64,000 nucleotides of DNA, from the NCBI GenBank assembly GCA_903642225.1, contig CAHJWI010000018.1, positions 1-64,000 of the forward strand, written 5' to 3'. Source of the DNA: Acidobacteriaceae bacterium (GTDB lineage: Bacteria > Acidobacteriota > Terriglobia > Terriglobales > Acidobacteriaceae). Made by a program: the position numbers and the translations under genes. Position 1 is the stretch's first letter. Each line of letters opens with the position of its first letter. A model generated the notes under the pieces. The model saw only the letters and a program-made list of their open reading frames with translations. It made no database searches and was not told where the DNA came from. Below, piece by piece: positions 22,952-42,919 of this stretch.

Positions 22952-22995
22952 GACACAGGCTCCAGAAGGGACAAGGTAGGAAAAGCAGAAAAAGT

Positions 22996-25373: not shown

Positions 25374-25406
25374 ATACTCACGCAAAACGGTTCGAAAGTA
25401 CGTTAT

Positions 25407-26657: not shown

Positions 26658-26777
26658 AGACTTCTCCTGCCCGCCCGGTGCGGGAACACTGCACTAAAAA
26701 TGACCACTCACGGCTTCTATTCCGCTTGCGCGGGGCCTACCTCGCGCTTGCGACTAAACGTAGAAGGACACTTGCCT

Positions 26778-28964
26778 CTACTTGGTTACCATGTGGTCCA
26801 TGGTTCTGTAATAGCTCTGGTATAGACCGTAGCTATGGCTCAAACGCGGGTGAACCTGATTCAGTACAATCCCGAGTGTCTTACCAACTCTGCGGAGCGT
26901 GTTAAGCACACCACTTACCTGTTGCTGGCGGGTGTTGCCCGCATGGCAAACCACGAGCACGCCGTCAACAAGGTGTGCCAGTTGAATCGGCTCAGCGAAG
27001 CAGAGCATGGGCGGTGCGTCGATAAATACCAGGTCGTACTCTTTGTAGGCGCTCTTCAGAATGGTTTCGACAGCCCGACCCACCTGGTCACACACTGCAT
27101 TGCTGTCGTTCCCGCCGACGATGATATCGAGTAGTGGATTCTCCACGACCGTCCTGCGTATCACGTTCAGCGAAAGCTTGTGGGTAATTGCATCGGCAAG
27201 TCCTACTTCATGCTGCATGTTGAAGTAACTGTGCTGCGTTGGGCAGCGCAAATCAGCGTCAATAAGCAGTGTGCGATACCCCTGCTGTGCATGCATTGCT
27301 GCAAGGTGAGCAATGCAGGAGGATTTGCCTTCTCCCTGCACCGCGCTTGTCACCATGATGGAGCGGAGAGGCCGGTTGCGGTGATTAATCAGGATGGTGC
27401 TCAGAACCGACCGAGCGGCTTCCTCATAGAAACTGGCGGAGCCAAACCACTGCTTGTTCGACTTGACCAGAGCTTGCTTTGAGCTTTCCCTTGCTTGACC
27501 GGGAGAAAGGTCTGCGAAGTGCGCGACCCGCGGCAGAATTCCGACAACCTCCTGCCCCAAAACTCGCTGTACCTGGTCGGGATCACGAAGGCTCTTGTCG
27601 CTAAGGTCGCTCAGTAACACAGCGATGATGGAGAGCACGAGTGAAAAGAAGAAGCTGAGTCCGATCAACACTGTCTTGTTAGGAAACACCGGGTGGAGTT
27701 GCGGCCGCGCTGGGTCGGTAATTCGAATCCCGTTACCCTGGAAAGCCCCATTAATGCCTGCCTCCTTCACTGTGCGGTAGAGTTCAGCGTACAGCGACCT
27801 ATTTGCTTCCGCTTCCCGCTTCAATTCCTGGTAGTGCATGGAGCTTGTATTAAGTACGTCGAATTGCCCTTTGGCTTCAAGCAACGACTGGTGCAGCATC
27901 TGTTCGCGCTTGTCGGCTTCTTCGTATTCCACCTCGATGCGTTTACCCACTTGGGCCTGGGCTGCGGTGAGCTGTCGCGTGAGCTCGGCCAGGTCAGTTG
28001 CAGCACGCTTGTACTCCGCGTTGCTGGTTCCGTATACGAGCTTTACAGATTCCATCTTCTGTTGCGCTGTCCGAACGTTCTCTTCCATGTGCGCAAGCGC
28101 CGTGGCCTGGAGTGACACCTCAATAGCGGCAGTGGAACCGGACTTGATGGCCTTGTACTCTACTTGCTTGCGTACCCTGTCGTTTTGTGCCTCTGTGTAC
28201 TCCGCGTTCAGTTGCGTGATGCGACTACTCAGAAGGCTGGTCTTTTCTTCCGGGTTAATCACCCCCAATTGCTTCTCGTAATAGGCGAGGGCGAGCACGG
28301 AGTCATCCATGTTGCGCTTTAATGCGCTCATCTGATTTTCGACAAACGCAGATTCCTCAAGTGCAGAGCGTGCTCTCGTTTCGCGACCGCTTACGATATA
28401 AGACTGCGCGATAGCGTTTGCCACGGCCGCAGCCTTCATTGTGTCGGGCGAACGATATGTGACGTTGATCAGAAAGCTGTTTGCAGGATGTGTCACCTTC
28501 AGATCTTTGAGGAAAACGGGCGCATCTTCCGGTCGCACGCCGTCGGGCAAAACGCCGGTCGACTTCGCCGGGTTAAGATGTAACGTCTTCACCACTGGAC
28601 GAAGCACGGTGTCAGACTGGATGACCTGTAATTCCGTGTTGAAGTATTGATCAGCTTCGACGCTGCTGGTATTACCTGGGTTCTGTCCTATGACAGTCGA
28701 TGGTGTTTTCAGGTCGATTGCGATACGCGCCGTCGCTTCATATTCCGGCTTAAGCTTGTACGCCAAAAGAACAGACGCCCCTGTAACAAGTAGGACCGCG
28801 ATTACTATTTTCCACCAGGCTTTGCGTATGAGCCAGAAGTAATAGCTAACGCTGAAGGTCGGTTCCGGAACGGCACGCGGTTGGAAATCATGGAGCGCGG
28901 TCAGTTCATGCGCGCGCTGAGAAGGAAGCCGAATTACCGGAGGAGATGGATCCACAGCAGTCAT
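26778..28964 (-). CDS. Wzc-type polysaccharide co-polymerase/BY-kinase
   Basis: This protein of about 728 residues has an N-terminal Wzz domain bounded by membrane helices near residues 50-70 and 430-450. A long coiled-coil stretch lies between them. The C-terminal kinase domain has Walker A SAVQGEGKSS at about 540-549, Walker A-prime IDADLR at about 568-573 and Walker B FIDAPP at about 647-652. The tail has a short tyrosine cluster, YGLYQSYY (Tyr712, 715, 718, 719). BY-kinases autophosphorylate such clusters to control chain length and export. I place the start at ATG 28964 after AAGGG; TTG 28994 adds ten residues. It lies downstream of the Wza-type gene, as usual for these pairs. Confidence 0.93.
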   Translation of the reverse strand: MTAVDPSPPVIRLPSQRAHELTALHDFQPRAVPEPTFSVSYYFWLIRKAWWKIVIAVLLVTGASVLLAYKLKPEYEATARIAIDLKTPSTVIGQNPGNTSSVEADQYFNTELQVIQSDTVLRPVVKTLHLNPAKSTGVLPDGVRPEDAPVFLKDLKVTHPANSFLINVTYRSPDTMKAAAVANAIAQSYIVSGRETRARSALEESAFVENQMSALKRNMDDSVLALAYYEKQLGVINPEEKTSLLSSRITQLNAEYTEAQNDRVRKQVEYKAIKSGSTAAIEVSLQATALAHMEENVRTAQQKMESVKLVYGTSNAEYKRAATDLAELTRQLTAAQAQVGKRIEVEYEEADKREQMLHQSLLEAKGQFDVLNTSSMHYQELKREAEANRSLYAELYRTVKEAGINGAFQGNGIRITDPARPQLHPVFPNKTVLIGLSFFFSLVLSIIAVLLSDLSDKSLRDPDQVQRVLGQEVVGILPRVAHFADLSPGQARESSKQALVKSNKQWFGSASFYEEAARSVLSTILINHRNRPLRSIMVTSAVQGEGKSSCIAHLAAMHAQQGYRTLLIDADLRCPTQHSYFNMQHEVGLADAITHKLSLNVIRRTVVENPLLDIIVGGNDSNAVCDQVGRAVETILKSAYKEYDLVFIDAPPMLCFAEPIQLAHLVDGVLVVCHAGNTRQQQVSGVLNTLRRVGKTLGIVLNQVHPRLSHSYGLYQSYYRTMDHMVTK

Positions 28965-29049
28965 AAGAACCCTTTTTGGGGAAAGCGTGCGCAAAGTGAT
29001 GCATTAGTTAGCTTGAACGGCAAGGCTGTTACGGCGGTGGCGAATACAT

Positions 29050-30075
29050 CTATCGCACAACAAGGAGACCGGCTTCGGCAGTCTGCCCGAAACCCGCGAG
29101 CTGACCCAAGAATTTACTGGTCATCTTTTTTCCATCCGCTGTTGGGATATACAGGATGTCATCCGAGAGGAGCGCCACATCCGGTGCGTGGCGTGTCATG
29201 ATCTGCCGAAGCGGAACAGCGACTTCGTCCCGTTCTGTCCCGGTTCCACGCTTTCGGTAAATATAAGCAGTCTTGCTGCTGTATGTCTCAAGCCCGGAGC
29301 TTAACGCGACGGCCTTCATCACCGTGGTATCCGAATCACTCTGCATCGGGTAGGCACCGGGTCGACGTACGTTACCTGCGACAAAAATTTTGTTCGCCTC
29401 AGGAACACGTATCTCTTCGCCACCACGAAGTGCCATGCTGGCCTGCGGTTCGGTGCCGTTGATTACATCTCTTACCGCCACGGTATGCACCTGCATCGCA
29501 CCGCCCGCTTGGGACCGCTCCGAAATGATGATGCTCGTGCCCGCGGTTGGACTCAGGCCGCCGGCTTTGGCCAATGCTTCGATCAATGTCGTTCGACCGG
29601 TGGCCTGATAGTTGATTGGGTGATTTACCGCTCCTACAATGCTTATTGGCCGGCTTCGATACTCAACGACGGAAACGTTGACGATAGGTTCCGCAAGGAT
29701 ATTTTCTTTCAGCAACACAGCCGTAAGTGTGTGAGCAATCTGAAGCGGTGTGAGTCCAGCGACTGCCAAGGGTTGATGGAGGAGTGGTAGCGCAAGATTC
29801 CCATTAAAGCCGACTCTGAAGTTGCGACTTAGCTCAGGGCAGTAGGCTACAGCGATCTCGACCAAATCGTCTGCTCCTACACGTTCGGCAGCGTCCGCAT
29901 CAGATCCAGCCGAATCAGAGACAGATGAGGCCAGAGCAGAGCTTGATTCTTCCTTGGTTTTGACATTACCGATTCGAGCCTGGCAATACGAAATCGGGGC
30001 GCAGATGAAACTGAGTTGCAGTGCTGCAGTCATTGCTACGATTGAGATACCGAGCTTGCTCGATGCATTCGTCAT
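29050..30075 (-). CDS. Wza-type polysaccharide export protein
   Basis: This 341-residue protein has a hydrophobic export signal (about 8-30), then the polysaccharide-export domain (DDLVEIAVAYCPELSRNFRV...GNLALPLL...AEPIVNVSVVEY). Two SLBB-like segments follow, one starting ISIVGAVNHP and one starting IFVAGNVRRPGAYPM. I see no clear lipobox, unlike classical Wza lipoproteins. The frame is open to 30243, but ATG 30075 has a strong AAGGAGA site and a signal peptide directly after it, so I choose it. A GC-rich hairpin abuts that ribosome site. It would form the outer-membrane or periplasmic export channel with the Wzc-type kinase encoded next. Confidence 0.9.
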   Translation of the reverse strand: MTNASSKLGISIVAMTAALQLSFICAPISYCQARIGNVKTKEESSSALASSVSDSAGSDADAAERVGADDLVEIAVAYCPELSRNFRVGFNGNLALPLLHQPLAVAGLTPLQIAHTLTAVLLKENILAEPIVNVSVVEYRSRPISIVGAVNHPINYQATGRTTLIEALAKAGGLSPTAGTSIIISERSQAGGAMQVHTVAVRDVINGTEPQASMALRGGEEIRVPEANKIFVAGNVRRPGAYPMQSDSDTTVMKAVALSSGLETYSSKTAYIYRKRGTGTERDEVAVPLRQIMTRHAPDVALLSDDILYIPTADGKKMTSKFLGQLAGFGQTAEAGLLVVR

Positions 30076-30081
30076 CGTTCG

Positions 30082-30107
30082 TCTCCTTGGGAACCGAGAT
30101 GGTTCCC
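30082..30107 (-). promoter_or_regulatory. hairpin GGGAACC-loop-GGTTCCC abutting the Shine-Dalgarno of the export gene
   Basis: On the minus strand a perfect seven-base-pair stem with a five-base loop (30089-30107) ends directly at the AAGGAG ribosome site (about 30082-30088) of the Wza-type gene. Its last bases touch the Shine-Dalgarno. Such an element could control translation or stop upstream transcription at the head of the export operon. There is no T-run, so a simple terminator is less likely. Function inferred from position. Confidence 0.5.
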
Positions 30108-30291
30108 TTACGCGGCATGTTGAAGCCGAAAGAGCCTTACGTTGAGGGCTTTCTCTTCGAACACACTCCGAGTATGTAGGCTGCGAACATTGCCGGTGTC
30201 GCTTAATGACATCATTCTGCCTGTAGCCTATGTCCGCTACCACTCGCTCTTCTGATATACACCGCCAAAGCCGCGCAGAGTCGTACGATAA

Positions 30292-31179
30292 CTACAAACC
30301 AAGAATCCGCATTGGGTGCAACCCACCGAGGAGGAGTTCCCGCCACGCCTGAACATTTCCACTCAACCTGCCCCGCCGGTCGATCGTGGGTTCTGGACGC
30401 ACACTGTAGACGAGATTTTTGAGCGAGCGGCTTGTCATGCTGGCAATTGCGTATGTCCAGCCCACAGAGCCTTTGCGGGCCAAATAAACGGGATTAGCAA
30501 CTTGTGAATAGCCCAGCCTGCGTCCAGACTGCCGGCCCGACTTGACACCCAGGTGCACTCCGTAGGCTTGATCCACGCGTATGATGGTGCCGAATTTAGC
30601 CAGTTGCCGCGAGAACTCCACGTCTTCGTACCAACCGTATAGTGGCAGCATTTCATCGAAGCGAAGGGTATGCGCATGGATTGGGCTGAGCCGAAGCGTC
30701 ATGTTGCAGCCGTATACGTTGAAAACCGGCTTGAAAGTCGGTTTTCCTGATCCTACTGGTGCTGATTGGAGCAGGACTCGAGCCTGCTGGAGGTCGAAAC
30801 CTGGGCCATTGATCCCATCGGCCAGCACGTGGCCGGTGGCGGCCATGACGCATGGATGGGCGGATAAGACAGCTTCGATTGTGCCCAGATAGTCTGGGGC
30901 CATCCAGAAGTCATCGTCGAGGAAGGTGACCAGATCGTACCCGTCAAGTTGGGACAGGCTAGTGTTGCGTTGTGTCGTCAGCCCAGGTGCGCTCTGGAGA
31001 AAGCGCACCTCGGGAAAGGAAGTGGGTGCATCACCGACGTCTTGTGGAGCGGGGTAAGTTACGAGGATCAGGTCCGGCACGCGCCGCTGCATCCGTAGCT
31101 GGGACAACGTCTCCGCAAGTACGGCTGGCCGCCCTCTAGTAGCGATCGCAACTGCGAGACGAGTTGAAGAGGTGGCCAT
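30292..31179 (-). CDS. GT2-family glycosyltransferase
   Basis: This 295-residue GT-A transferase starts at ATG 31179, which follows AGAAGGA; the frame is open to 31425 but without family sequence. It has LAVAIATRGRPAVLAETL at the N-terminus, LDGYDLVTFLDDDFWMAPDYL with the LDDD metal motif, GCNMTLRLSPIH, and GWYEDVEFSRQLAKFG with the ED catalytic-base region. These are GT2 signatures. It probably adds one sugar to the repeat unit. It lies upstream of the export genes on the same strand, separated by about 215 bases that probably include a promoter. Confidence 0.9.
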   Translation of the reverse strand: MATSSTRLAVAIATRGRPAVLAETLSQLRMQRRVPDLILVTYPAPQDVGDAPTSFPEVRFLQSAPGLTTQRNTSLSQLDGYDLVTFLDDDFWMAPDYLGTIEAVLSAHPCVMAATGHVLADGINGPGFDLQQARVLLQSAPVGSGKPTFKPVFNVYGCNMTLRLSPIHAHTLRFDEMLPLYGWYEDVEFSRQLAKFGTIIRVDQAYGVHLGVKSGRQSGRRLGYSQVANPVYLARKGSVGWTYAIASMTSRSLKNLVYSVRPEPTIDRRGRLSGNVQAWRELLLGGLHPMRILGL

Positions 31180-31889
31180 GGGGATGTCCTTCTTGTTGAG
31201 CATCATCAAGGTCACCGCATCAACGTTGGTCCGGTTTACGTCAACATGATCGTGCTGCATAGCTATCCGTCCAAGTGTTGATGGAACGCGTGTGCGCCTT
31301 GAGGAGCCCTTGCGAGGGTTCTGCGACAGGTGAACCAGCCAGCAAGGCTCGGGCAACGGATAGGCCGTCGCCTGATTCGCCCAGGAGCACTCTGGATTTG
31401 TGGCATCGTTTTCCGAAGACGTCATAGGTCGCGGGAAACAGCATTGTGCTGCAACACGGGTCGTCTCTTTGAACTTCAGGCAATCGTTTCATTTTTACAG
31501 TTGACTTCTTGCTCGTTCTATCGTTTCTCTTATGGAAGCGGGTACACCCGCTGACGATACACTGCCAGGTAGTTATGTTAGTGACTTATTTCCATGTTTG
31601 CCGATGTTGCCGGACATAGCCGACCAGTTCGGTAATGCCGACACGGCGAATGTAACCTGAGACCCAGTCGCTGGCGTTTCGCGGCTAGGCTCTCTTTTCA
31701 AACGATCGATTGCCGCTGTTCTCTCTTCCTGCTCCATGGTCGAAATCGTGTTGACTCTCTCACGTGCCAAATTGCTGGCAGGGCCTCGGGCGCTCTGCTC
31801 CGCTGCTTGCGTACACAGAAGTCATGGCAGAACGCGCAGCGGCTTTGATCTTGCATTCAACTACCGATGATCGAGGCGAGCATTCGCGC
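31180..31889. other. divergent intergenic region between the two arms of the cluster
   Basis: About 700 bases between the GT2 start (minus) and the GMC start (plus). No convincing gene is present. It contains the near-perfect 16-base palindrome AGCGGGTACACCCGCT at 31537-31552 and must hold the promoters of both arms, but I cannot assign -35 and -10 boxes with confidence. Confidence 0.5.
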
Positions 31890-33515
31890 ATGCTATTCAG
31901 TGATCTAAGGCGAATCCGGGACAAGACAGACTTGCAGTGCTGCGTCTGTATTGTGGGTGCTGGTCCTGCAGGTATTACGCTGGCCACGGAACTCGCGAAC
32001 ACCTCTCTTCAGGTGATCGTGGTGGAGAGCGGCAGCAAAACAAAGGAAGACGAGTTCACAACCGGTCTAAACGAGATTGAAAGTATTGGCGCGCCGCGTG
32101 TCATGAGATCTCAAATGGTGCGCAACAGGGTCATCGGTGGGTCCTCGCACAGCTGGTACGGCCGTTGCGCTCCGCTGGACGCAATCGACTACGAGGCCCG
32201 GCCATGGGTGCCGTACTCGGGCTGGCCCGTTTCCTTTGAGGAGATAGCACCCTATGTTGAGCGGTCCACCGTGCATCTCGGCCTAGGCCCAGCGCTCTAC
32301 ACGGACGGCCTGCCACAAAACTCAGACTTGGCACACTACGTAGACGGAACGCGATTGCCAGATGGTTCACTTGGGCCGGACTTGCGCGTGGTGACGTGGC
32401 AATTCAGTTCTCGTTCATCGTTGCACAACGATTATGTCCGCTTTGGCCTCCGCTTGCGATCCTTGCGGGCTAACAATCTACGGGTGTTAACGCAGGCCAC
32501 TGTCACACAGATTCTGGCGACAGACGATGGAGGCCATGTTACGGGTGTTGAGGTGTCGACCCCAGAGGGCAAGACGCACACCATTCGCACCCAGCGCGTC
32601 GTTCTTTGTGGCGGAGGCATTGAAAACGCGCGGATGCTGCTTGCCTCAAATCGTGTTGATGGAAGTGGTTTGGGCAATCGTCGTGGACTCGTGGGCCGCT
32701 TCTTTATGGACCACCCTCGGACGACGGCTGGCACATTTACGCCGGAGGCCGCGCCCGCGGTGCAGCGGGAACTAGGGTTGTTTCGTGCCCCGACCGGGGT
32801 TCGAGTGCAGTGTGGCCTGTCACTGTCGTTGGAAGTACAGCGGCGTGAGGGCCTGCTAAACTGCGCCGCGTGGACTACTCAGCACGTTGCGGACGACGAC
32901 GCGTGGCGATCGTTGCGGAAGGTAAGCCTTGGCAACGGAGACCACAAGCTTGAAGCCGCATTGGTTCTCTGTAAAAACGCAAATCAGATCGCATTGGATC
33001 TTTGGGGTAAGTTGTTTTTTGGAAAGGCTTTGACGCGCCGCTTGAAGCAACTGGACTTGGACATAACCGTGGAGCAGGCGCCTGACGCTGACAGCCGCAT
33101 CAGGCTGTCAAGTCGACGCGACGCTTTGAACGTGCCACTTTCACAAATTGACTGGAAAATAAGCGAGTTAGAGCGTCGCAGTGTCGTCCGGCTGAGCCAC
33201 GCAACGAATGCCACGTTGGCACGTGCAGGACTGCCCCAAGCCGAACTGGTGGACTGGATTCAGCATGATCGACCGGAGGATGCGGTCTTCTCCGATCCAG
33301 CACATCCGATCGGCTCCACTCGCATGGCAGTGCGAGAAGAGGATGGTGTTGTGGATCGCAATGGCAAAGTCTTCGGTGTGGATAACTTGTACATCGCCGG
33401 TAGTTCTGTATTTCCGACGGGCGGCCATGCAAATCCAACTTTAACCATTATCGCCCTTACTCTACGCCTTGCGGATCACCTGATGCATCTTGCGCCGAGT
33501 AGCCCGCCTTTATAA
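31890..33515 (+). CDS. GMC-family FAD oxidoreductase
   Basis: This protein of about 541 residues is a choline-dehydrogenase-like flavoprotein. The FAD loop GAGPAG is at residues 23-28, VIGGSSHSWYGRCAPLD is the family block that follows, and CGGGIENARMLLAS lies in the middle. The C-terminal FPTGGHANPTLT holds the catalytic His513 and Asn515 pair. I choose ATG 31890 because the FAD fold begins directly after it; ATG 31824 and 31764 are in frame. GMC proteins oxidise alcohol groups of sugars and related compounds. In this cluster it may oxidise a sugar hydroxyl of the polymer precursor. No signal peptide is seen, so it should be cytosolic. Confidence 0.87.
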   Translation: MLFSDLRRIRDKTDLQCCVCIVGAGPAGITLATELANTSLQVIVVESGSKTKEDEFTTGLNEIESIGAPRVMRSQMVRNRVIGGSSHSWYGRCAPLDAIDYEARPWVPYSGWPVSFEEIAPYVERSTVHLGLGPALYTDGLPQNSDLAHYVDGTRLPDGSLGPDLRVVTWQFSSRSSLHNDYVRFGLRLRSLRANNLRVLTQATVTQILATDDGGHVTGVEVSTPEGKTHTIRTQRVVLCGGGIENARMLLASNRVDGSGLGNRRGLVGRFFMDHPRTTAGTFTPEAAPAVQRELGLFRAPTGVRVQCGLSLSLEVQRREGLLNCAAWTTQHVADDDAWRSLRKVSLGNGDHKLEAALVLCKNANQIALDLWGKLFFGKALTRRLKQLDLDITVEQAPDADSRIRLSSRRDALNVPLSQIDWKISELERRSVVRLSHATNATLARAGLPQAELVDWIQHDRPEDAVFSDPAHPIGSTRMAVREEDGVVDRNGKVFGVDNLYIAGSSVFPTGGHANPTLTIIALTLRLADHLMHLAPSSPPL

Positions 33516-33683
33516 GCCCTGTTGTCGATGGACGACATGTAGGCGATAGGGCGCAACGAATTAGCCTTCTTGCTATATGTTGCGGGTAGACGAAAGGAGG
33601 CCGTGGAAGCCTCTCGTCCGCAAACGGATCGTGCAGCAATGGCCGCGGTAGATGCCAGCGGGAACGACCAAGGAGACTCCAGA

Positions 33684-34886
33684 ATGCCAGAACGGTATGA
33701 GGAACTGGACTCACTTCGCGGATTGGCAGCGATGACGGTCTTCTGCTATCACTGCATTTTTTTATTAGCGATCTGTCCGGCGTGGCTGGCGTGGACGATA
33801 CGCACTCCGCTGGGGCTGCTCCTTTACGGTGGCCATCAGGCGGTCATTCTTTTCTTCGTTCTAAGTGGCTTTGTCCTACACCTTCCCTACACGCGGCAGG
33901 GCTATCGCGCCTCGTATCCCTCGTTCATCGTGAAGCGAATCTGCCGGATTTACCTTCCCTACCTGGGAGCCCTGCTCTTTTTTGTTCTTGCATACGTACT
34001 CTTCTTCAACGCAAACCGACCCGCTGGCCTCTCTGAACTCTACGGTTGGCGACCCTTGAGTCTTGGCCAGGGACTTACCCTTTTTCGCGATCATGTGCTG
34101 TTCGTTGGCTTCTATCACCGTGATTACTGGAATGGAGCGACGTGGACACTTGCGGAAGAAATGCGGATCTCGTTCATCTTCGTGTTGCTGGCAATGATGG
34201 TCGTCCGGCTACGGACTCGGACGTCTTTGCTTCTCGCCCTTGGCTGTTCAGCAATGGTGTCGCTGGCAATTCGCGTCGTGCATCACCGTACGCCTTTTGA
34301 GCCGTTCCACTATGCAAGCCTCTTCGTGCTGGGCGCGGTACTTGCCGCCAACCGTCTGGCTCTGCTGGGCAGATGGAGTCGCATAGGTCGGCCGCTGCAA
34401 TCGGCCCTAGTTGCCGTTGCGGTTTTGACTTCGAGCTATGCTCTCGTTTTAATGGAAAAGTTTCCGCGCATAGTAACGGAAGAAGCTTCCGACTGGCTGA
34501 TTGCGCTTTCCGTCTCGGTGTTTCTATTGGCTGCACTCGCCGGCACATGGTTCACTCGAGTTCTCCGCCAAAGATTCATGCTGCACCTAGGTAAGACGTC
34601 TTATGGAATCTACCTTCTGCACCTACCTGTGATCTTTGTGTTCGTAAGTCTTCTCTGGACGCGCGTGCCACCGCTTGTCGTCTTCGCGCTTTCTCTGCCA
34701 GTGACCCTGGTGCTCGCGCACGTTTTTCACGTGTATCTCGAGCAGCCATCCATGGCACTTGGAAAGCGGCTTGCGCGCTTGCTGGATCGTCGTTCCGGCG
34801 TGGGATCAACGACTGTTCTGCCGGGCGATGGGCCTTTGGAAGCAGCTGGTTCGATGCCTTTGATCGGGTATCGCGGTAATGTATGA
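33684..34886 (+). CDS. acyltransferase-3 family membrane O-acyltransferase
   Basis: This 400-residue protein starts at ATG 33684, seven bases after AAGGAGA; the frame is open from 33570 but without a ribosome site. It has YEELDSLRGLAAMTVFCYHCIF with the conserved Arg and His, HQAVILFFVLSGFVLHLPY, KRICRIYLPYLGALLF, WTLAEEMRISFIF, and HLGKTSYGIYLLHLPVIF. These are diagnostic of acyltransferase-3 membrane proteins such as OafA-type O-acetylases. Around ten membrane helices are visible. With the family member at 25407 and the hexapeptide enzyme at 42428 it suggests a heavily acylated polymer. It is followed 48 bases later by the polymerase-like gene. Confidence 0.92.
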   Translation: MPERYEELDSLRGLAAMTVFCYHCIFLLAICPAWLAWTIRTPLGLLLYGGHQAVILFFVLSGFVLHLPYTRQGYRASYPSFIVKRICRIYLPYLGALLFFVLAYVLFFNANRPAGLSELYGWRPLSLGQGLTLFRDHVLFVGFYHRDYWNGATWTLAEEMRISFIFVLLAMMVVRLRTRTSLLLALGCSAMVSLAIRVVHHRTPFEPFHYASLFVLGAVLAANRLALLGRWSRIGRPLQSALVAVAVLTSSYALVLMEKFPRIVTEEASDWLIALSVSVFLLAALAGTWFTRVLRQRFMLHLGKTSYGIYLLHLPVIFVFVSLLWTRVPPLVVFALSLPVTLVLAHVFHVYLEQPSMALGKRLARLLDRRSGVGSTTVLPGDGPLEAAGSMPLIGYRGNV

Positions 34887-34934
34887 ACACGGTACTTTGC
34901 AATTCTTTGTAGTAGTTCTCATGAGGTCTTTTTC

Positions 34935-36335
34935 TTGCCGACGCTAAGTACTATCCCTTTGGTTCTGCTGATGGTCCTACTCTGGCAGCTTACAGGCGGC
35001 CAGCTCTTAGCAATTGTGGCTTTTTGCTCGGTCTTCTCAGCCGCGTCCGCCTTGAATTTCGGTGCGATGGGTGTCGCGCCGTGGCTTTTCGTCCTGGCTG
35101 CAGGCTTGATGGTGAAGCTGCTGAAAGGGCATCCGGCATACAAAGTCGCGTCCGGAATAAACCGGTTATCGTTCTGCCTGGTCATGATGTTTCTGCTGTA
35201 CGCCAGTTGGACAAGTGTGGCTTATCCCTTGCTGTTTCAGGGTACGCCGGTGATTCGCACAGTCTCCGAGGAGCCACTTGCGTGGGGTCTGTCCAATTTC
35301 TCCCAGCTCTGCTACCTGCTCGCCGCCGCTGTGCTCTACCTCCTGGCGCTCGGCTCAACCCGTTCAGAACTGCGCGATATCTTGAAGTGGTATGTGAGGG
35401 GCTGCACCGTCGCTTGTTTATTCGCAATGTACCAACTGGCAAACGCGATCACGCACGTTCCCTTCCCATCTGAGATGCTCTACTCCAATAAAGCCCACGT
35501 TATTTATGGCGCTTATCAAATCAACGGTATGTGGCGGCTGAACGGAACGTTCTGCGAGGCTTCCGAGATGGCGGGATTCGTCATCGTCGGTGTCGCGCTT
35601 GTGGGCTGGCAAATCGTGACACGTCCTTTCCGTGTAAGCCGCCTGCTCAATCTGCTGCTCATGGTCGCGTCCCTGCTGCTGACGGTGTCAAGCGTTGGGT
35701 ATCTCTGTCTGGGCTATGTCGCCGTTTTTGGCAGCATTCTTGCTCTGTACTACGTGGTGCGGCAGGGTAGCTTGTCGATAGCCAGGGTTGCCTTCGGCCT
35801 TCTTCTGTTCATGGGCGGCACAGCTCTGTTTACGCTGCAACCGGCGGCACGTGAGGCTGCCACTAAACTCGTTTCATCAACTCTGCTGGACAAGCAAAAT
35901 ACCGAGTCTTACCGTAACCGGACAGAAACCCACGTCGTCGCGCTCGAGACTTTATCCAAGACCTACTACATGGGTGCAGGGTGGGGTAGTGCGCGTGCTT
36001 CAGGACTGATTTATATTCTGCTTGCGACTGTCGGCATACCCGGCGTGCTGCTGTTCTTCGTGTTTATCGGTTCGCTGGCTATTCCACTCTTCCACAAACG
36101 AAGTACTACGACGCCTTCCAGTCTAGAGACTGCTCGCGACGATCAGTTTGAACAATCATTGTTTGCGGTGTCCGCTCTTCTGCTGGCGATGCTGGTCGCC
36201 GGTGCTGAGCCGGTCGACCCGGTACTCTGGATATTATTCGGTATCGCGACGGTCGCCCATGACCCCCATGCAAAACGCAGGTCACATTTGTCAGCCGCCA
36301 GCCGCCTGTTTTTCGCGCAACCGATTGCAACCTGA
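34935..36335 (+). CDS. O-antigen ligase/Wzy-like polymerase
   Basis: This 466-residue integral membrane protein has about eleven hydrophobic segments and a large periplasmic loop (about 300-350) containing NTESYRNRTETHVVALETLSKTYYMGAGWGSARASG in consecutive blocks. This resembles the Wzy_C loop of O-antigen ligases and polymerases, including the GxGxGS-like GAGWGS. It would polymerise flipped repeat units in the periplasm. The start is TTG eight bases after ATGAGG; no in-frame ATG lies near. Wzy proteins vary strongly, so the assignment rests on topology, the loop and its place among Wzx, Wzc and Wza genes. Confidence 0.82.
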   Translation: MPTLSTIPLVLLMVLLWQLTGGQLLAIVAFCSVFSAASALNFGAMGVAPWLFVLAAGLMVKLLKGHPAYKVASGINRLSFCLVMMFLLYASWTSVAYPLLFQGTPVIRTVSEEPLAWGLSNFSQLCYLLAAAVLYLLALGSTRSELRDILKWYVRGCTVACLFAMYQLANAITHVPFPSEMLYSNKAHVIYGAYQINGMWRLNGTFCEASEMAGFVIVGVALVGWQIVTRPFRVSRLLNLLLMVASLLLTVSSVGYLCLGYVAVFGSILALYYVVRQGSLSIARVAFGLLLFMGGTALFTLQPAAREAATKLVSSTLLDKQNTESYRNRTETHVVALETLSKTYYMGAGWGSARASGLIYILLATVGIPGVLLFFVFIGSLAIPLFHKRSTTTPSSLETARDDQFEQSLFAVSALLLAMLVAGAEPVDPVLWILFGIATVAHDPHAKRRSHLSAASRLFFAQPIAT

Positions 36336-36451
36336 TCGCTTTCCAGAAGTCCTCCGGCCGCATGATCCGTCTTCCACGAGCACAGCCTTCGGCCTGACAG
36401 CTTCAGCCTTAATAAGTTCTATCTATTCCATGAGAACTGGAGAGTGACGCC

Positions 36452-38032
36452 ATGCCAGTAGAATTAGCAGAGCAGCAAGCGTCAATGGTTGTAGATGCGA
36501 CCGGCGAAGACATCCGGTCCAGATGGGCGCGTTACGCATTCGCCGCATTTCTGGCGGGATACACGGGCCTGCTGGCGTGGTTCTGCCGCACCAAGTTCAT
36601 GGCCTTCGATGAGCTGCTTTCGTTCTACACCGATCGCGCACCGAGTGTGGCTCGCATGGTCGCGATACAGCGAGAATTCCCAGTGTCGCTCGATCCTTTG
36701 CTGTTCCATCTTGCCGCACACGGGGCGTTGCAGTTCGGGCTAGCTCCATTCTTTGCCGTTCGGCTGCCCTCCCTTATCGGTGCCGTTGTGATGGTGGTGT
36801 GCATTCACCGTTTCACGCGCCGTTTGAGCGACAGAGTGACAGCGGCGCTGGTCGTCGTAGGCCTGCTCATTAGCAATCAGTTCCACATGGTGGAAGCAAG
36901 GCCTTACGGGGTCCTGTTGGGCCTGGCAGCCCTGTCCCTGGTGCTTTGGCAGAATGCACTCCGCGGCGAGCATCGCAAAGCGTCTTTGCTAGGATTGTCT
37001 CTAAGTCTGGGTGCTGCTATCAGCAGTCATTACTTCGGCATTCTTCTAGTCCTACCATTTGCGATTGCAGAATGCCTGCGTGCGATGCGAAGACGAACAT
37101 TCGACCTGGGGCTTAGCGCAGCTATTTTGGCTAGTCTCGTCTTCGTGGCAGGGTGGTTGCCGTTTTTAGCAGGCGCACATCAGTACAAGTCAAACTATTA
37201 CATCAAGGTGCAAGCAAGCGATCTTGCACGTGCGTACACGTCAGTGTTTCAAAGCTTTATCGGTGCACACGCACCCGCACTGGAATGGCTGACCTGCGCA
37301 ATAGTGCTGGTCGCCGTCGTTCTAGGAGCCCGCAAAGGGTATCTGCGGGCGATGCAAACACAAAGCGCTCCGTCCTCTCAGGGTTTACACACGGAATGGA
37401 CGTGCGTGCTGCTGTTCGCTCTGTTGCCGGTGGCCGGTGTGCTGCTGGCCTGGGCAGCATCGGGAGCGTTTGAAATTCGGTATGTTGTGGAGTTCTCGCT
37501 GGGCATAGCGATCTGCCTGGCTGCGGGCCTGGTCGCCATCGTGCGCAACCGTTCTCTGCTTACGGGTCTCGTGTTCGCAGGCTGCATGCTCACAGTGGTG
37601 TCCCTGGCAAAACGGGTACAGCAGGACAGACTCGACCGTGCGTTGCTCCAGCGTGTCGCAGACCAAACCGCTGGCAGCCCGACATTACTGACGGATAAGG
37701 AGGAGTATCTGTGGATACATGCGAGCCAGGATCAAAGCGCAGCAGCGGCAAACGCCCTGTGGGTTGCTGACATACGCCGCGAGATCGCTGCTACGGGCAG
37801 TGACAATATCGATCGCACAGTGCTGAATCTGAACGCCATCGCAGCTCTACCTGTACTGTCGTACGGTGATGCCCTTCGCCATCCGCCAACGTTGCAGATA
37901 ATCGTGAATGACCGAAGCGAGCCAAAAAACTGGCTGCCCTCAGCGCTCGCCGGGTCTGGCCGGAAAACCACGCCCGTGCAGCGGATAGGGACGGATCAGG
38001 TATATCAAGTCGAAGCCTCTGGAACTCCCTAG
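36452..38032 (+). CDS. GT39/ArnT-like membrane glycosyltransferase
   Basis: This 526-residue protein has an N-terminal membrane helix followed by the acidic loop FDELLSFYTDRAPSVARMV. Next comes DPLLFHLAAHGALQFG, and multiple further helices lead to a soluble C-terminal domain (about 400-526). This is the plan of GT-C enzymes such as the PMT/ArnT group, where the first periplasmic loop carries the catalytic acid (here the FDE motif). Such enzymes add a sugar from a polyprenyl-phosphate donor outside the membrane. The ATG follows GGAGAG. It is the last gene of the plus-strand arm; sugar and acceptor are unknown. Confidence 0.78.
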   Translation: MPVELAEQQASMVVDATGEDIRSRWARYAFAAFLAGYTGLLAWFCRTKFMAFDELLSFYTDRAPSVARMVAIQREFPVSLDPLLFHLAAHGALQFGLAPFFAVRLPSLIGAVVMVVCIHRFTRRLSDRVTAALVVVGLLISNQFHMVEARPYGVLLGLAALSLVLWQNALRGEHRKASLLGLSLSLGAAISSHYFGILLVLPFAIAECLRAMRRRTFDLGLSAAILASLVFVAGWLPFLAGAHQYKSNYYIKVQASDLARAYTSVFQSFIGAHAPALEWLTCAIVLVAVVLGARKGYLRAMQTQSAPSSQGLHTEWTCVLLFALLPVAGVLLAWAASGAFEIRYVVEFSLGIAICLAAGLVAIVRNRSLLTGLVFAGCMLTVVSLAKRVQQDRLDRALLQRVADQTAGSPTLLTDKEEYLWIHASQDQSAAAANALWVADIRREIAATGSDNIDRTVLNLNAIAALPVLSYGDALRHPPTLQIIVNDRSEPKNWLPSALAGSGRKTTPVQRIGTDQVYQVEASGTP

Positions 38033-38139
38033 CTTGTGCTGTGCGCCCTCGCGAGTCGGTCACGTTCGTGGAGCAACTTCAAAGCAGAGCTCGTCCCGCG
38101 CTGTGAAGGGACGGCCAGAGCTGCTGTTCTCGGCCAATG

Positions 38140-38778
38140 TCAGGCGATCGCGAGCACCGCACTGCAGATAGCGACCGCGGTACGCGCGGTGTGGCTGATG
38201 GAGATAGAGCAGCCTGGATGAAGAGGCCGGCCGATGCTGTCGCGCCCAATCTCAATCGCTCTAAGATGACCTGTGGGTGCGCCCTTGACACCGGCTTTCA
38301 GGATGGCTTCCTTGGCTGCCCATGTGCCGCACAGGGACGACCGTACGTCGGACTGGCGTACACAGTAGCTGATCTCTGCCGCTGTGAAATTATCCTGATA
38401 GAACGGGTGCTCGCGATAGTCAATGGCTTCTGGCAGGTTGTCGACCTCCTCGATGTCGATGCCCACAACGGGAGCACCGGTTGCCGCGCCAAGACTGACG
38501 ATCGAAGCCGGCTCCCCGATCTTGATCGCATTGGCAGATGACTGCGCTGCCGCCTCGACGAGCGCAACTCCATCGCCGCTCGCCATCAGTTCACGCACAG
38601 AAAATGGGACGGTCGAACTGATGACCGCCAGGCGCAGGGTCAACTGCTGCTGGCGTGCCCAGGACGAGAACGCAGCTCGCTGCACGGAGCGCAGGCGAAG
38701 GGGTGTATCGGCCGCCAATGTTTCGCCGGTCAATCGCGACAAATATGTAACAACCTGATCAGTCCCTGCCGTTTCCAT
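38140..38778 (-). CDS. carrier-domain-like/4'-phosphopantetheinyl transferase fusion
   Basis: This 212-residue protein has two parts. Residues about 1-70 resemble an acyl carrier protein: VVTYLSRLTGETLAADTPLRLRSVQ, then PFSVRELM, with Ser31 of RSVQ at the place of the DSL serine. Residues about 100-212 are a PPTase with GIDIEEV (Asp108, Glu110), F...AEISYC, the signature WAAKEA at 153-158 and SISHT at 193-197. PPTases attach the phosphopantetheine arm to carrier proteins, so this may modify its own N-terminal domain. The ATG follows AGGAGG, 22 bases behind the E2 gene, in an operon E1-E2-PPTase. The carrier identity of the N-terminus is inferred from pattern only. Confidence 0.8.
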   Translation of the reverse strand: METAGTDQVVTYLSRLTGETLAADTPLRLRSVQRAAFSSWARQQQLTLRLAVISSTVPFSVRELMASGDGVALVEAAAQSSANAIKIGEPASIVSLGAATGAPVVGIDIEEVDNLPEAIDYREHPFYQDNFTAAEISYCVRQSDVRSSLCGTWAAKEAILKAGVKGAPTGHLRAIEIGRDSIGRPLHPGCSISISHTARTAVAICSAVLAIA

Positions 38779-38800
38779 GCCGAGCCTCCTGTTTCAACTC

Positions 38801-40204
38801 TTACCAGCCGCTCCAGCAGCTCCCGCAACATAGGACTTCTTCGCCATTGAGTCCTACGACCTTCAGCAATCCTTTGTCCTTACTGGACTTCACGGCTTCC
38901 TTGGCGGAACGGCCACAGAAGGAGCACACAGTCGCTGACACGACCGCGAACTCATCCGTCGCGAAGCTGAGCAACCGGTCACGCAGATCGTTAAGGAAAG
39001 CCATCACTTCCCTGCCTTCGGTGACGCGGTGATCGAAGCCGGCGAACAGCCGGTAACCCGCTAACGAGCTGGAGGTGATGCCGACGATGCAGCTCTGTCC
39101 GCGAGGCAGAAGTGGCAGTACAAAATCCAACTGACCGCCGGAAAGATCCGTCACCGTGAAGGTAGCGCGTGTCAGTTCCTGGGCGGTCAGCTCGTTGTTG
39201 ACGTATCGTCCAACTGCGTCGGCAATGGTCTGCGCAAGTTCCGGCAGACCCGCACGGTCCGCGTGTTCAATACCGTAGACCATGAGTCGGCCGCCATCAT
39301 CGATCGCCAGACCTGCGTGAATGGATGCATGCTGAAAGATCTGGCCGTCTGCGTAGAAAGAGTTCAGCCGGGGGTACTTATGCATCAGGCGTGCAGACTC
39401 GTAGAGCACAAAATCAGTGATTTTGCCTGCAAGAAAATCACCGGGCTTGCGCCGCACCAGCAAGGGTCCCAGGTCGACCCCGAGCACAGAAAGCATGGTC
39501 TGGCCCGCGCCTTGGCTCAGCGTCTCTATTTCCGCGCGCTTGCGCTGCCCAACGGGAGAACCGGGCAGTGTGCCAACAGGCACCTTTGCAGCTGGCGGTG
39601 CCGCCAGTGGAGCCGTTGGTGCTGGCGGAGAGCTGAGCTCCGCCAGCTGGTTCTGACATGCAACGTGCGCAAGCACGTCCGCTGATGTCACGAAGTCTGC
39701 ATCGAACTGCGCCGGTGACAGCGCGTGTTTGGTAAGCAGGGTCAAGGCGGCGATCGAGAAACGTGCCTCGTTTTGACGCGGCTTCACAGGGCGAGGCGAA
39801 GGTGTTGCGAGGGAAGTAGGTCCGTTATCTTGTACGGGAGAGGGCGCTGGGGCGGATGGAGGCTCGACCATCGCCGCTGCAACCTGCTGCGGTACGTCCG
39901 CAAGAGTCGCAGGGCCTGCAACAGGTGCGGGTACATCAACACGCTGACCCCGTACCGCGAACTCTTCTGGAGAGACAATCCGGGCAATGGTTACGCCAAA
40001 GAAGACGGTCTGCCCGGCGGCTAACTCGTGAACCACGATGCCATCGCCCGGTGAGACATGCTCCTCCGTTGCTTTGGAGTTTTCGATTTCAAAGAGGGGC
40101 TCATCCTTGACGACAGACGTGCCACTTTCTACAAAGACCATGGTCACCACCGCGGACTCGTCATTTGCGGTGTCCCGCTCCAGCATCATGTCTAAGGTAT
40201 TCAT
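38801..40204 (-). CDS. lipoyl E2-like acyltransferase with C-terminal zinc-ribbon-like tail
   Basis: This 467-residue protein opens with a lipoyl domain (about 1-80; lipoyl-lysine Lys44 in ENSKAT). A Pro/Ala-rich linker follows, then a weak peripheral-subunit-binding-like stretch (about 145-180) and a catalytic-like domain (about 230-415). The E2 active-site motif appears as DHRVTEG (His392) instead of DHRxxDG, so the second acidic residue is Glu for Asp. The last 45 residues carry CxxC at 427-430 and CCGSC at 459-463, a zinc-ribbon-like tail not usual for E2. It shares an ATGA overlap with the E1 gene and precedes the PPTase gene. It probably takes an acyl group from E1; the acceptor may not be CoA. 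Confidence 0.85.
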   Translation of the reverse strand: MNTLDMMLERDTANDESAVVTMVFVESGTSVVKDEPLFEIENSKATEEHVSPGDGIVVHELAAGQTVFFGVTIARIVSPEEFAVRGQRVDVPAPVAGPATLADVPQQVAAAMVEPPSAPAPSPVQDNGPTSLATPSPRPVKPRQNEARFSIAALTLLTKHALSPAQFDADFVTSADVLAHVACQNQLAELSSPPAPTAPLAAPPAAKVPVGTLPGSPVGQRKRAEIETLSQGAGQTMLSVLGVDLGPLLVRRKPGDFLAGKITDFVLYESARLMHKYPRLNSFYADGQIFQHASIHAGLAIDDGGRLMVYGIEHADRAGLPELAQTIADAVGRYVNNELTAQELTRATFTVTDLSGGQLDFVLPLLPRGQSCIVGITSSSLAGYRLFAGFDHRVTEGREVMAFLNDLRDRLLSFATDEFAVVSATVCSFCGRSAKEAVKSSKDKGLLKVVGLNGEEVLCCGSCWSGW

Positions 40205-42270
40205 GCTGCACGCTCCATCAGGGCAGAAATTGCACTGCAGACGTCTTGTATGCTCGGCAAGGCAACCGCCTCAAGCGACGCTGCCGATGGGATGGGCATG
40301 GGCTTACCACTGACCCTGCTCGCCACAAAGGTAGGCCCCAGCACTTCTTGTAGCTGCGCAATGACCTCGGCACCGACACTGCCGTATCGTGACCCCTCTT
40401 CGACGACCACCAGTCGTCCGGTTCGTCGAACTGAATCCAAAATGGGGTTGAGATTGACCGGAGATAGGCTTACCGGAACCAGGAGCTCGGGAATCGCATC
40501 GGCCTTATCGAAAATGTCCATCAATCCATCCGCAACAAAACGAGCCATGCCGCCATAGGCAAGCAGCGTAACGCTGGCACGAGCGTGCTCTGCATGGACG
40601 CGGAGTGTTGGCAGCAACGTGCCGTCAGTCTCGGTCGTGAAGCCTGCAGGCGGGGTGAACGTGCGCGCCGTGTAGTCACTTTTGTTTTCCAGCAGGATCA
40701 CTGGGCAGCGGAGATCCTGAATCCCGGCGAGCAGCGTCTCTGCCTGTCCCAGTGAATTCAGACTGGCTGTGCACACGTTATCTACCCCAATTAAAAATCG
40801 CTCCAGCGATTGCGAGTGGGTTGGCCCATAGCCGCGTCGACCCCCCATGGGCGTCCGCAGAATCACGGGGCAACTGAACTTCTGGTTGTACATGTTAAAC
40901 ATCTTCGAGGCGTTATTAATGATCTGGTCGAAGGCATAGGTGATGAAGTCGCCGAACATGATCTCCACAAACGCGCGACGCCCCGTAACGGCAAGGCCAA
41001 TGCCGATTCCCGCGATGGCGGCCTCGCTGATCGGTGTGGTGCGCACCCTCGCTCCGAAAGCAGTGCTCATGCCCTTTGAGAGTTTGAACGCTCCACCGTA
41101 TGGATCTTCGATGTCCTCACCAATGAAGAACGCGTCCTGATCGCGCTGAAGCCAGGATGTATAGAAACCATTGAGCTGTTGAGCGGTACGGCGATCTTCC
41201 TTTGGATTGCCTTCGACAGGTTGCCAGCACACTGGCTCGTCCGCGGCATGCCGGGGCAGCTGGTCAACAAAGTAGTGCTGCGGATCGAGTGGAGGCTTCG
41301 TCAGGGCGAGGGCAATCGCGTCAGCAGCCTCGGCCGCGAACTCCTTGTAGAGGGTGTCGTAGTTCTGGTACTCGCGAACGGCAATCGTCGCTGGATCATG
41401 ATCACGAAACCACGCCACCTCATCAGGATTGCGCGTGTCGTCTCCCTTGGAGTGAGGGTTTAGCCGGTACGTGCCGAGGGTGACAAAGGTGGGCAGGCTC
41501 TGAGACCTTGCCCTGTCCATGGCCTCGCCCAGAATCCGATCAAAGTGTACAAGGTCCCATGTGTCGGCAGACACAGTGTTCACGCCAAATCCGCGTGCCC
41601 GTTCCGCAATCTGGCCGGCTACGGAGTTCGCCTGCGGCGTGGACTGGCTGTAGAAATTGTTTTCACACACGATGACATGCGGCAGGCTCCAGAGCGAGTC
41701 CAGATTCAGTGTCTCGTAGACTATTCCCTCACCCAGCGTGCCTTCGCCCAGGTACGAGACCACTACGTCCGCGTTACCCTTTGTCTTGCGGTCGAGCGCT
41801 ATGCCCGCAGCCACTGGCAGCAGCCCACCCTGCTGTCCATTCGACAGGAAGTTCTTTGCCCACAGGTGCTGGCTGCTGCCGATGCCGGCGCAAATTCCGT
41901 CTGCGTTGCCGACCAGTTCGTCGATGAGGCCGCGCCAATCGCGAGTGGCCGCAATAAAGTGGCCGTGACACCGATGATTCGACGTCACGAAATCGTTTCT
42001 GCGCAGATGCTTCGCCAGAATCGCGCCAGAAAACTCCTGGCCGATGCACGTGTGAATTGTGCCGTGCAGTTTGCCCTGGCCAAATAAGTCGTAGAGCGCA
42101 TTCTCCACCGCTCGAATTCTTAACGCCACTTCAATCTCAGGCCGATTCGTGCTTGCACGAAGAAAGCGATGCGTGGCTTCCAAGCCGCTGATCGCACTGG
42201 CGCAGGCCGAGCTAATCGCCGGCGCAAAGTTGTGTTGCGTGTGCTCTGTCTCCAAGCCGCTGAAAGCCAT
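40201..42270 (-). CDS. fused E1 alpha-beta 2-oxo acid dehydrogenase
   Basis: This 689-residue thiamine-diphosphate enzyme joins both E1 chains. The alpha half (about 35-340) has LHGTIHTCIGQEFSGAI, SNHRCHGHFIA (98-107), and the ThDP site GEGTLGEG at 175-182 ending in ENN at 203-205. GEG replaces the usual GDG. The beta half (about 385-689) begins GEDIEDPYGGAFKLSKGM. It contains PISEAAIAGIGIGLAVTGRRAFVEIMFGDF, ILRTPMGGRRGYGPTHSQSLE, and VVEEGSRYGSVGAEV. Fused forms exist but are less common than separate subunits. The ATG follows AAGGAGA. It would decarboxylate a 2-oxo acid and load the acyl group on the E2 lipoyl arm. No E3 gene is present. Confidence 0.92.
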   Translation of the reverse strand: MAFSGLETEHTQHNFAPAISSACASAISGLEATHRFLRASTNRPEIEVALRIRAVENALYDLFGQGKLHGTIHTCIGQEFSGAILAKHLRRNDFVTSNHRCHGHFIAATRDWRGLIDELVGNADGICAGIGSSQHLWAKNFLSNGQQGGLLPVAAGIALDRKTKGNADVVVSYLGEGTLGEGIVYETLNLDSLWSLPHVIVCENNFYSQSTPQANSVAGQIAERARGFGVNTVSADTWDLVHFDRILGEAMDRARSQSLPTFVTLGTYRLNPHSKGDDTRNPDEVAWFRDHDPATIAVREYQNYDTLYKEFAAEAADAIALALTKPPLDPQHYFVDQLPRHAADEPVCWQPVEGNPKEDRRTAQQLNGFYTSWLQRDQDAFFIGEDIEDPYGGAFKLSKGMSTAFGARVRTTPISEAAIAGIGIGLAVTGRRAFVEIMFGDFITYAFDQIINNASKMFNMYNQKFSCPVILRTPMGGRRGYGPTHSQSLERFLIGVDNVCTASLNSLGQAETLLAGIQDLRCPVILLENKSDYTARTFTPPAGFTTETDGTLLPTLRVHAEHARASVTLLAYGGMARFVADGLMDIFDKADAIPELLVPVSLSPVNLNPILDSVRRTGRLVVVEEGSRYGSVGAEVIAQLQEVLGPTFVASRVSGKPMPIPSAASLEAVALPSIQDVCSAISALMERAA

Positions 42271-42427: not shown

Positions 42428-42919
42428 TTGAGTGATTACGCCTATCGTCTGACGAACGCCCTGCTTGGTAGCGAAGTAGTCCCTGCATTCCTCCGTACCA
42501 AAGCAATGCGAGCTTTGGGCTTTCGCATGTCCACCGAAGCGACGATCTGGGCCGGAGCAAACCTGCGTTCCAAACGGATCACCATCGGCTCTGGCGTCTT
42601 TATCAACGTTGGATTTTACCACGATGGATACGACGAATTGTTGATAGAAGACAATGTTCGTATCGGACCCTATGTACGTATCCTCACCGCCACTCACGAG
42701 ATTGGACCGTCACAGCAACGGGGGTTGATTGAGGTTCTTGGCAAGCCGGTCTCCATTCGCGACGGCTGCTGGATCGGTGCGGGTGTAACCATCCTGCCGG
42801 GTGTTACCGTTGGCCGGGGGTGCGTACTTACCACCAACTCCGTCATTTTCGAGGACACAGAACCAGACGGGATGTATGCGGGAAATCCCGCACGGCGGGT
42901 CCGCGATCTTGATCCTTAG
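42428..42919 (+). CDS. left-handed beta-helix (hexapeptide) O-acetyltransferase
   Basis: This 163-residue protein starts at TTG seven bases after AAAGGA. Hexapeptide repeats run through the protein (IWAGANLRSKRITIGSGVFINVG, LLIEDNVRIGPYVRILTATH, VSIRDGCWIGAGVTILPGVTVGRGCVL). The active-site histidine is in TATHEIG, and the closing motif is GMYAGNPARRVRDL. These are signatures of the NodL/WcaF/maltose acetyltransferase group, which use acetyl-CoA. It would acetylate a cytosolic sugar of the repeat unit. It is divergent from the E1-E2-PPTase operon with 157 bases between starts. Confidence 0.93.
   Translation: MSDYAYRLTNALLGSEVVPAFLRTKAMRALGFRMSTEATIWAGANLRSKRITIGSGVFINVGFYHDGYDELLIEDNVRIGPYVRILTATHEIGPSQQRGLIEVLGKPVSIRDGCWIGAGVTILPGVTVGRGCVLTTNSVIFEDTEPDGMYAGNPARRVRDLDP

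Follow-up and report, generated by a model that had tools for sequence, protein, structure and literature searches.

The loading of an acyl carrier protein (ACP) by enzymes of the dehydrogenase/transketolase kind is known; one example is the glycolyl-ACP system NapB/NapD of naphthyridinomycin. Peng's PNAS report of 2012 is said to name a ketose phosphate, not a 2-oxo acid, as the donor. According to excerpts of PMC6335953, the scleric acid cluster codes for SclQ1 (the ACP), SclQ2, SclQ3, SclQ4 and the phosphopantetheinyl transferase (PPTase) SclP, and SclQ1-4 are related to QncN/QncL/QncM, which, it states, were shown to govern how a glycolyl unit is made and attached. For scleric acid, the ketose phosphate source and the loading onto SclQ1 are a proposal of the authors (same excerpts). 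Here, we analyzed a 64,000-nucleotide stretch of an Acidobacteriaceae bacterium (assembly GCA_903642225.1, contig CAHJWI010000018.1, positions 1 to 64,000; 'the window'), in which three adjoining genes encode a fused, thiamine diphosphate (ThDP)-dependent E1 alpha-beta, a lipoyl E2 and a PPTase with an additional N-terminal domain (Table 1). This three-gene module is real and conserved, not an artefact. We put at about even the chance that it charges a carrier for the acylation of sugars with a glycolyl or other short acyl group. We propose that it works like the Qnc/Nap/Scl type without being a member of it, as it lies in an exopolysaccharide cluster and no nonribosomal peptide synthetase (NRPS) family was detected among the window proteins scanned.

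The resemblance to the Qnc/Scl systems extends to E1 alpha and beta, a lipoyl E2, an ACP and, in the scleric acid cluster, a clustered PPTase (PMC6335953, in part); in addition, a comparable Streptomyces set has an E1 that shares the window E1's side of the E1 tree. In the published excerpts, however, Scl has distinct ACP and PPTase proteins and its acyl group ends up in a nonribosomal peptide, whereas the window has a single protein for the ACP-like domain and the PPTase, a fused E1, an E2 ending in a CxxC/CxxC tail and a surrounding cluster of the polysaccharide type. Renieramycin RenH/RenI likewise combine a fused E1 with a lipoyl E2, and RenH, encoded on the renieramycin plasmid, is the best match of the window E1 in the plasmid collection (38% identity over 95%). 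The renieramycin locus nevertheless differs in having no carrier-PPTase match in the 22.9-kb stretch, an E2 without the CxxC tail and a natural-product setting. In Photorhabdus, an E2-like protein of the pepteridine pathway has been proposed to prime a carrier rather than coenzyme A (CoA), but there the donor is a keto acid, the protein is an E2-T-C fusion with a condensation domain and the acceptor is a pterin (PMC5384830, in part). The Dlt system (DltA/C/B/D) resembles the proposed route in that it passes a carrier-bound acyl group through an acyltransferase to a surface polymer (PMC11035591, in part). Its DltA ligase loads D-alanine, while in the window a dehydrogenase pair would load the carrier; moreover, the window has hexapeptide and acyltransferase-3 proteins, and none of its open reading frames (ORFs) matches MBOAT. 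Finally, the pyruvate and branched-chain 2-oxo acid dehydrogenases (PDH, BCKDH) share the E1 and E2 superfamilies and the lipoyl arm, but the window module has no adjoining E3 gene. The enzymology is of a known kind; its fused, zinc-tailed form and its occurrence in polysaccharide loci appear to be new as far as the open-licence literature shows. The first-pass annotation, which had seen a candidate for an undescribed system, went too far because an E1, E2, ACP and PPTase set is described in the scleric acid cluster (PMC6335953, in part). Its remark that no such pair was known from a polysaccharide cluster fared better: the module occurs there repeatedly, and we found no report of this gene set in polysaccharide clusters in the open-licence literature, a weak negative since most subscription journals lie outside it.

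Table 1. Features of the module and of the exopolysaccharide cluster (window coordinates)
Feature	Position	Strand	Details or basis
Fused E1 alpha-beta	40201..42270	-	689 aa, ThDP-dependent; alpha ~52-293, beta ~365-676
E2	38801..40204	-	467 aa; lipoyl domain ~1-78, linker, acyltransferase catalytic domain, zinc-ribbon-like tail
Lipoyl-lysine codon K44 in ENSKA	40073..40075	-	E2
CxxC...CxxC tail of E2 (CSFC, CGSC)	38807..38932	-	Sequence reading
Carrier-like domain + AcpS-type PPTase	38140..38778	-	212 aa
N-terminal carrier-like domain	38569..38778	-	Residues ~1-70; homologous to ACP domains of relatives
Putative phosphopantetheine serine S31	38686-38688	-	Within carrier-like domain
Hexapeptide acyltransferase (WcaF/maltose acetyltransferase-like), proposed acyl receiver	42428..42919	+	PF00132 2.2e-13; NCBIfam resemblance below cut-off
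Acyltransferase-3, possible alternative receiver	33570..34886	+	PF01757 1.7e-32
Second acyltransferase-3 of cluster	25407..26657	-	PF01757 2.6e-27
Exopolysaccharide cluster core	18542..38032	.	Pfam; includes glycosyltransferases
Flippase	18542-20170		Pfam
Sugar transferase	21497-22951		Pfam
Wzc-like	26778-28994		Pfam
Wza-like	29050-30243		Pfam
Wzy-like	34935-36335		By eye, without Pfam match

Location, strand and coupling of the three genes agree with the first-pass annotation. All three window ORFs are intact: the E1 and E2 genes share a 4-bp overlap (ATGA), which recurs in 11 of the 14 loci measured, and the PPTase gene starts 22 bp past the E2 stop, preceded by AGGAGG. A promoter scan of 37900-43600 found none (1.8 expected). 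That E3 is absent, as had been noted, holds for the genes adjoining the window module (ORF and Pfam reading), but not for every relative: L046 and L047 carry, next after the PPTase, a flavin adenine dinucleotide oxidoreductase with a CX4C motif like that of E3.

E1 is fused, as previously annotated, with PF00676 (4.6e-43), PF02779 and PF02780 all above gathering in the single ORF. The family shares signatures such as HTCIGQE, NHRxHGH, HSKGDD, PYGGAFK, IMFGDF and RGYGPTHSQ. Phylogenetic analysis of 18 fused E1s from polysaccharide and NRPS loci separated them by a 100/100 branch from seven other E1s (four fused actinobacterial proteins and three joined from split genes, with no PDH or BCKDH of known structure among them). 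RenH and the Lentzea E1 cluster with those of L046, L047 and L050 (98/96), and the polysaccharide label requires four changes on the tree. The separating branch persists when the E1 of a Streptomyces MbtH-ACP-E1a-E1b-E2 set (L146, from an NRPS/polyketide synthase region of a plasmid) is added to give 19 rows; the sequences of QncN, NapB and SclQ lie outside the tree. A search of 150 genomes of Lentzea's order with E1 matched 11, reaching family strength in Lentzea alone (951 versus at most 467 bits); six of the remaining ten served as outgroup E1s, and L135 and L139 were left out of the trees. Both E1 and E2 score below the cut-off of every NCBIfam model, so that names from this source are resemblances. 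Judged by sequence, the window E1 sides with the E1s found in natural-product clusters of the quinocarcin/scleric acid kind.

This grouping bears on the substrate. The first-pass annotation had proposed that a 2-oxo acid is decarboxylated. Such a route would load the carrier in the same way from pyruvate or a branched 2-oxo acid, the donor being acetyl- or another acyl-ACP, and we regard it as possible but rather unlikely. It is consistent with the membership of E1 and E2 in 2-oxo acid dehydrogenase superfamilies, with the E3-like genes that adjoin the module in L046 and L047, and with the pepteridine pathway, for which an E1 together with the E2-T-C protein is proposed to prime the carrier from alpha-keto acids (PMC5384830, in part). 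However, the tree places the window E1 among natural-product E1s of the type that forms glycolyl units and apart from the seven others tested, and plain acetylation would be served more simply by acetyl-CoA.

The window E2 matches PF00364 (4e-6) and PF00198 (1.3e-22), both above gathering, and its lipoyl lysine K44 is invariant in all 16 E2s aligned. Its catalytic motif, DHRVTEG, had been described as altered. The motif and the lipoyl domain are indeed there, but E at the sixth position is ordinary in this family because 9 of the 16 aligned sequences have E, 4 have T and 3 have D, most of these rows having been collected with a pattern that admits just E, D or T at this position. Among the six rows found without the pattern, E occurs in three, D in two and T in one. 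The idea that the change marks special chemistry was rejected, as all three residues occur in the family. The zinc-ribbon-like tail that had been read from the sequence is present as CSFC...CGSC. A CxxC...CxxC tail occurs in 15 of the 16 loci with the carrier-PPTase (not in L045) as opposed to one of the six without it (L131); the Fisher P-value is 0.0017 for 21 loci, with L051 left out and kinship ignored. We suggest that the tail may dock the carrier-PPTase, L131 and L045 being the exceptions. Separately, L130 has two E2 copies in one module (7717-9132 and 10530-11864, minus strand) with an apparent ABC-transporter ATPase between them; the second has FDARIVSG where the DHxxxxG motif would be expected and may have lost catalytic activity. 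In L131, a lipoyl-synthase-like gene (10552-11607) lies immediately 3' of E2, in a cluster with NRPS genes (assigned by eye).

The third protein matches PF01648 (9.5e-11, residues 105-186 of 212, above gathering), and residues D108, K156, E157, K161 and H196 are identical in 14 of 14 members; PF01648 together with the conserved D, E and K assigns it to the AcpS-type PPTases. Weak 4PPT_N matches occur in five of 14 members (best 0.0021), within the PPTase half for the three examined. As to the extra N-terminal domain, the L046 copy matches PF00550 (2.6e-7), and the domain profile matches ACP chains, although designed repeat proteins, which are not carriers, occupy the top two rows and several further down. 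The model of the L052 domain (Silvibacterium bohemicum S15) has a predicted ACP fold in which helix 2 starts at the invariant serine (S34). These data support, at the family level, the view that the N-terminal domain of the relatives is an ACP, and to that extent the carrier-like N-terminus reported earlier stands. The window domain itself is the least clear, divergent copy: its model is of low confidence, with block means no higher than 71, and it has no Pfam match, nor is it among the six PF00550 matches in its genome.

How widespread is the module? We compiled 22 loci of this E2 family, and in 16 of them the PPTase gene directly follows E2 (the window, L036, L033/L041, L034/L052, L049, L130, L038, L039, L042, L043, L044, L045, L046, L047, L050 and L051); the E1/E2/PPTase neighbourhood is thus conserved in other genomes. 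The six without it are L035/L040, L048, L053, L056, L037 and L131; contig ends truncate L038, L042, L051 and L053. Seventeen loci came from a contig scan of 84,980 species that used an E2 alignment of six rows and the peptide pattern FDH[QR][LV]x[EDT]GR[TEM], a procedure that misses members lacking the pattern; the other five are the window, L036 (genome G008), L130 and L131 (both obtained by searching the phylum, see below) and the renieramycin locus (L037). The scan gave 44 loci, of which 17 belong to the fused-E1 family (L038-L053 and L056). In the remaining 27, no E1 match exceeds 214 bits, compared to at least 755 for every whole fused E1 of the family. Searching 298 genomes of the order with the E2 protein produced some match in 282; besides the window, four had E-values of 1.1e-40 or lower, and the next match followed at 4.9e-20. 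Three loci of this search (L035, L033 and L034) are the same as L040, L041 and L052 of the scan. A search of 396 genomes of the phylum with the E2 profile yielded 20 with a match at 1e-60: the window's, G008, G455 and G600 at 279-467 bits, and 16 at 206-221 bits that we took as ordinary E2s. No relative was found in the IMG/VR scan with E2. According to sequence titles and tree labels, loci with the carrier-PPTase occur in Acidobacteriota, Pseudomonadota, Armatimonadota, Planctomycetota, Verrucomicrobiota, Bdellovibrionota and Chlorobiota; L042 is labelled Bacteroidales, and its phylum is presumably Bacteroidota.

The fused carrier-PPTase gene, in turn, exceeds 190 bits over both domains in three of 396 genomes of the phylum, the window's included. 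A looser limit is passed by 205 of the 396, and the rest of those listed match the PPTase half only or nearly so. It is present in five of 398 genomes of the family (again counting the window's), and in the genome sets around three relatives (1 of 115, 1 of 109 and 1 of 98) it occurs in the seed genome alone. Therefore, the fused gene is rare and patchy.

With the PPTase after E2 in 16 of 22 loci, a chance neighbourhood was rejected. The same count, drawn from several phyla, bears on the reading that the first two genes form an ordinary 2-oxo acid dehydrogenase complex yielding acyl-CoA, next to an unrelated PPTase. The domain content would fit such a complex, and three Pyr_redox_dim proteins are encoded elsewhere in the genome. 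Yet the PPTase of the relatives has its own carrier domain, E1 has family-specific residues, and the genome holds another E2 and a separate AcpS-like match. We find this explanation decidedly improbable, and rejected it as the principal one in view of the conserved carrier-PPTase and the separate E1 group.

Nine of the 16 carrier-PPTase loci lie among polysaccharide genes (the window, L036, L038, L044, L046, L047, L049, L050 and L130), as called from Pfam, NCBIfam and reading, much of it by eye and mostly so for L049. A hexapeptide acyltransferase is present in all nine (Pfam, in the stretch examined). Its gene adjoins the module in seven: the window, where it is divergent from E1 at a distance of 157 bp, L036, L038, L044, L046 (beyond the E3-like gene), L049 and L050; in L047 and L130 it lies further away. 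Against 2.0 expected, seven gives a rough P of ~0.0005, based on hand-made gene counts and a question framed after the data had been seen. The nine hexapeptide proteins are 19-34% identical to one another and resemble at least two kinds, so these partners do not derive from a single inherited gene; they and the E3-like protein of L046 score below every NCBIfam cut-off, and their names are likewise resemblances. It is this soluble enzyme, and not the acyltransferase-3 genes singled out in the first-pass annotation, that tracks the module, and the membrane acyltransferases are possible but less favoured receivers. Among the 16 loci, L045 is the sole one with MBOAT: its MBOAT gene precedes E1, and a weakly SGNH-like gene follows the module. 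L035, which has no carrier-PPTase, also has an MBOAT gene by the module; the SGNH-like partner at the MBOAT loci is weak or called by eye. Without the fused carrier-PPTase, too, are L048, in an O-antigen-like cluster (by eye), and L037, L056 and L131, where NRPS genes are present (judged by gene names and reading) and carriers are at hand. Two further observations concern E1 neighbours: in L039, a gene for an FkbH-domain protein (6364-8055; TIGR01686, 1.8e-74) stands directly before E1, and the polysaccharide cluster of L044 contains an ORF pair (15116-16893) weakly matching the E1 profile, possibly a split transketolase.

Several observations weigh against a carrier-charging role in polysaccharide acylation. 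Only one of 14 carrier-PPTase members has a PF00550 match, and the window carrier-PPTase has no C-terminal hydrophobic helix and is ~5 residues shorter in the loop before the carrier serine. The window E1 has an end branch of 1.72 (median 0.59), and GEG replaces GDG at its residues 175-177 (41740-41748, minus strand), at a position which we take to be the Mg/ThDP motif; the replacement is unique among the 18 family E1s aligned. The L146 E1, for its part, has a long branch (2.96; fork 84/75) and its inner placement is unsure. In five of the 16 loci (L033, L034, L042, L043 and L051), the stretch examined has no polysaccharide genes. The hexapeptide partners resemble EpsC/CysE in some cases and WcaF/WbbJ in others, such enzymes are common in clusters of this type, and many hexapeptide acyltransferases use acetyl-CoA, though LpxA and LpxD, also hexapeptide enzymes, take acyl-ACP. 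The long branch, the GEG motif, the short loop and the missing membrane tail would also fit a window copy that is decaying or has changed function, its carrier dead and only E1/E2 or only the PPTase acting. This seems improbable, as the three ORFs are intact and coupled and have kept the lipoyl lysine, the E2 DH...G, the PPTase residues and the serine. Furthermore, this form of the carrier is shared by L038 (comparison of the whole proteins gives 40% identity across 202 residues), which argues for a maintained subtype.

For a carrier-charging module, we infer the following course of events. E1 would form a two-carbon (or other short) unit bound to ThDP, in the likeliest case a glycolyl precursor derived from a ketose phosphate, and would oxidatively acylate the lipoyl arm of E2. 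The E2 catalytic domain would then transfer the acyl moiety to the carrier's phosphopantetheine thiol instead of to CoA, while the fused PPTase would install the phosphopantetheine arm and keep the carrier in the holo form. From the carrier, a dedicated acyltransferase would place the acyl group on a sugar of the polymer or of its precursor. In polysaccharide clusters, this would usually be the hexapeptide enzyme encoded next to the module; in the window, the hexapeptide protein is the first candidate and the two acyltransferase-3 proteins the second. The dihydrolipoyl arm could be reoxidised by the general E3 of the cell or, in L046 and L047, alternatively by the adjoining E3-like protein. 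A different use of E1 is conceivable, as ThDP enzymes form branched sugars in some pathways (avilamycin, yersiniose): the two-carbon unit would be added to a keto sugar by a C-C bond to give a branched-chain sugar. Such a reaction would need no lipoyl E2, carrier or PPTase, yet all of these are conserved, and we hold it to be most improbable.

By its gene content, the cluster in which the window module lies reads as a Wzx/Wzy-type exopolysaccharide cluster (Table 1). Among other genes of the window, one for an OsmC-like protein (42963-43502, minus strand) adjoins the hexapeptide acyltransferase, and those for an alpha-mannosidase (GH38), a CBM9 protein and an alpha-N-acetylglucosaminidase lie near the cluster (45165-49330 and 62621-63925). 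A 2919-aa protein (51793-60552, minus strand) with 22 Ig-like (Big_3_5) stretches and NHL repeats is a likely surface protein; it is followed by a 190-aa ORF resembling an outer-membrane beta-barrel (51221-51793, below gathering). An extracytoplasmic function (ECF) sigma factor gene and then an anti-sigma (RskA_C) gene are located at 60893-62529 (plus strand).

Polymer acylation is usually viewed as drawing on acetyl-CoA and similar donors. Tentatively, and with somewhat less than even confidence, we suggest that the module represents a new class of acyl donors for surface polysaccharides, spread over about eight phyla, in which a self-activating and often membrane-tailed carrier-PPTase would receive, by way of a transketolase/dehydrogenase-like E1 and a zinc-ribbon lipoyl E2, a short acyl group (glycolyl) made from central ketose phosphates without CoA or ATP, and would serve exchangeable acyltransferases (hexapeptide or MBOAT/SGNH). 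The repeated finding of the module links polysaccharide clusters with the E1/E2 type of natural-product pathways. If a carrier-charging dehydrogenase does act in polysaccharide loci, central sugar phosphates would feed surface chemistry by an additional route, and unusual acyl groups, such as hydroxyacetyl, would be predicted in uncharacterised polysaccharides.

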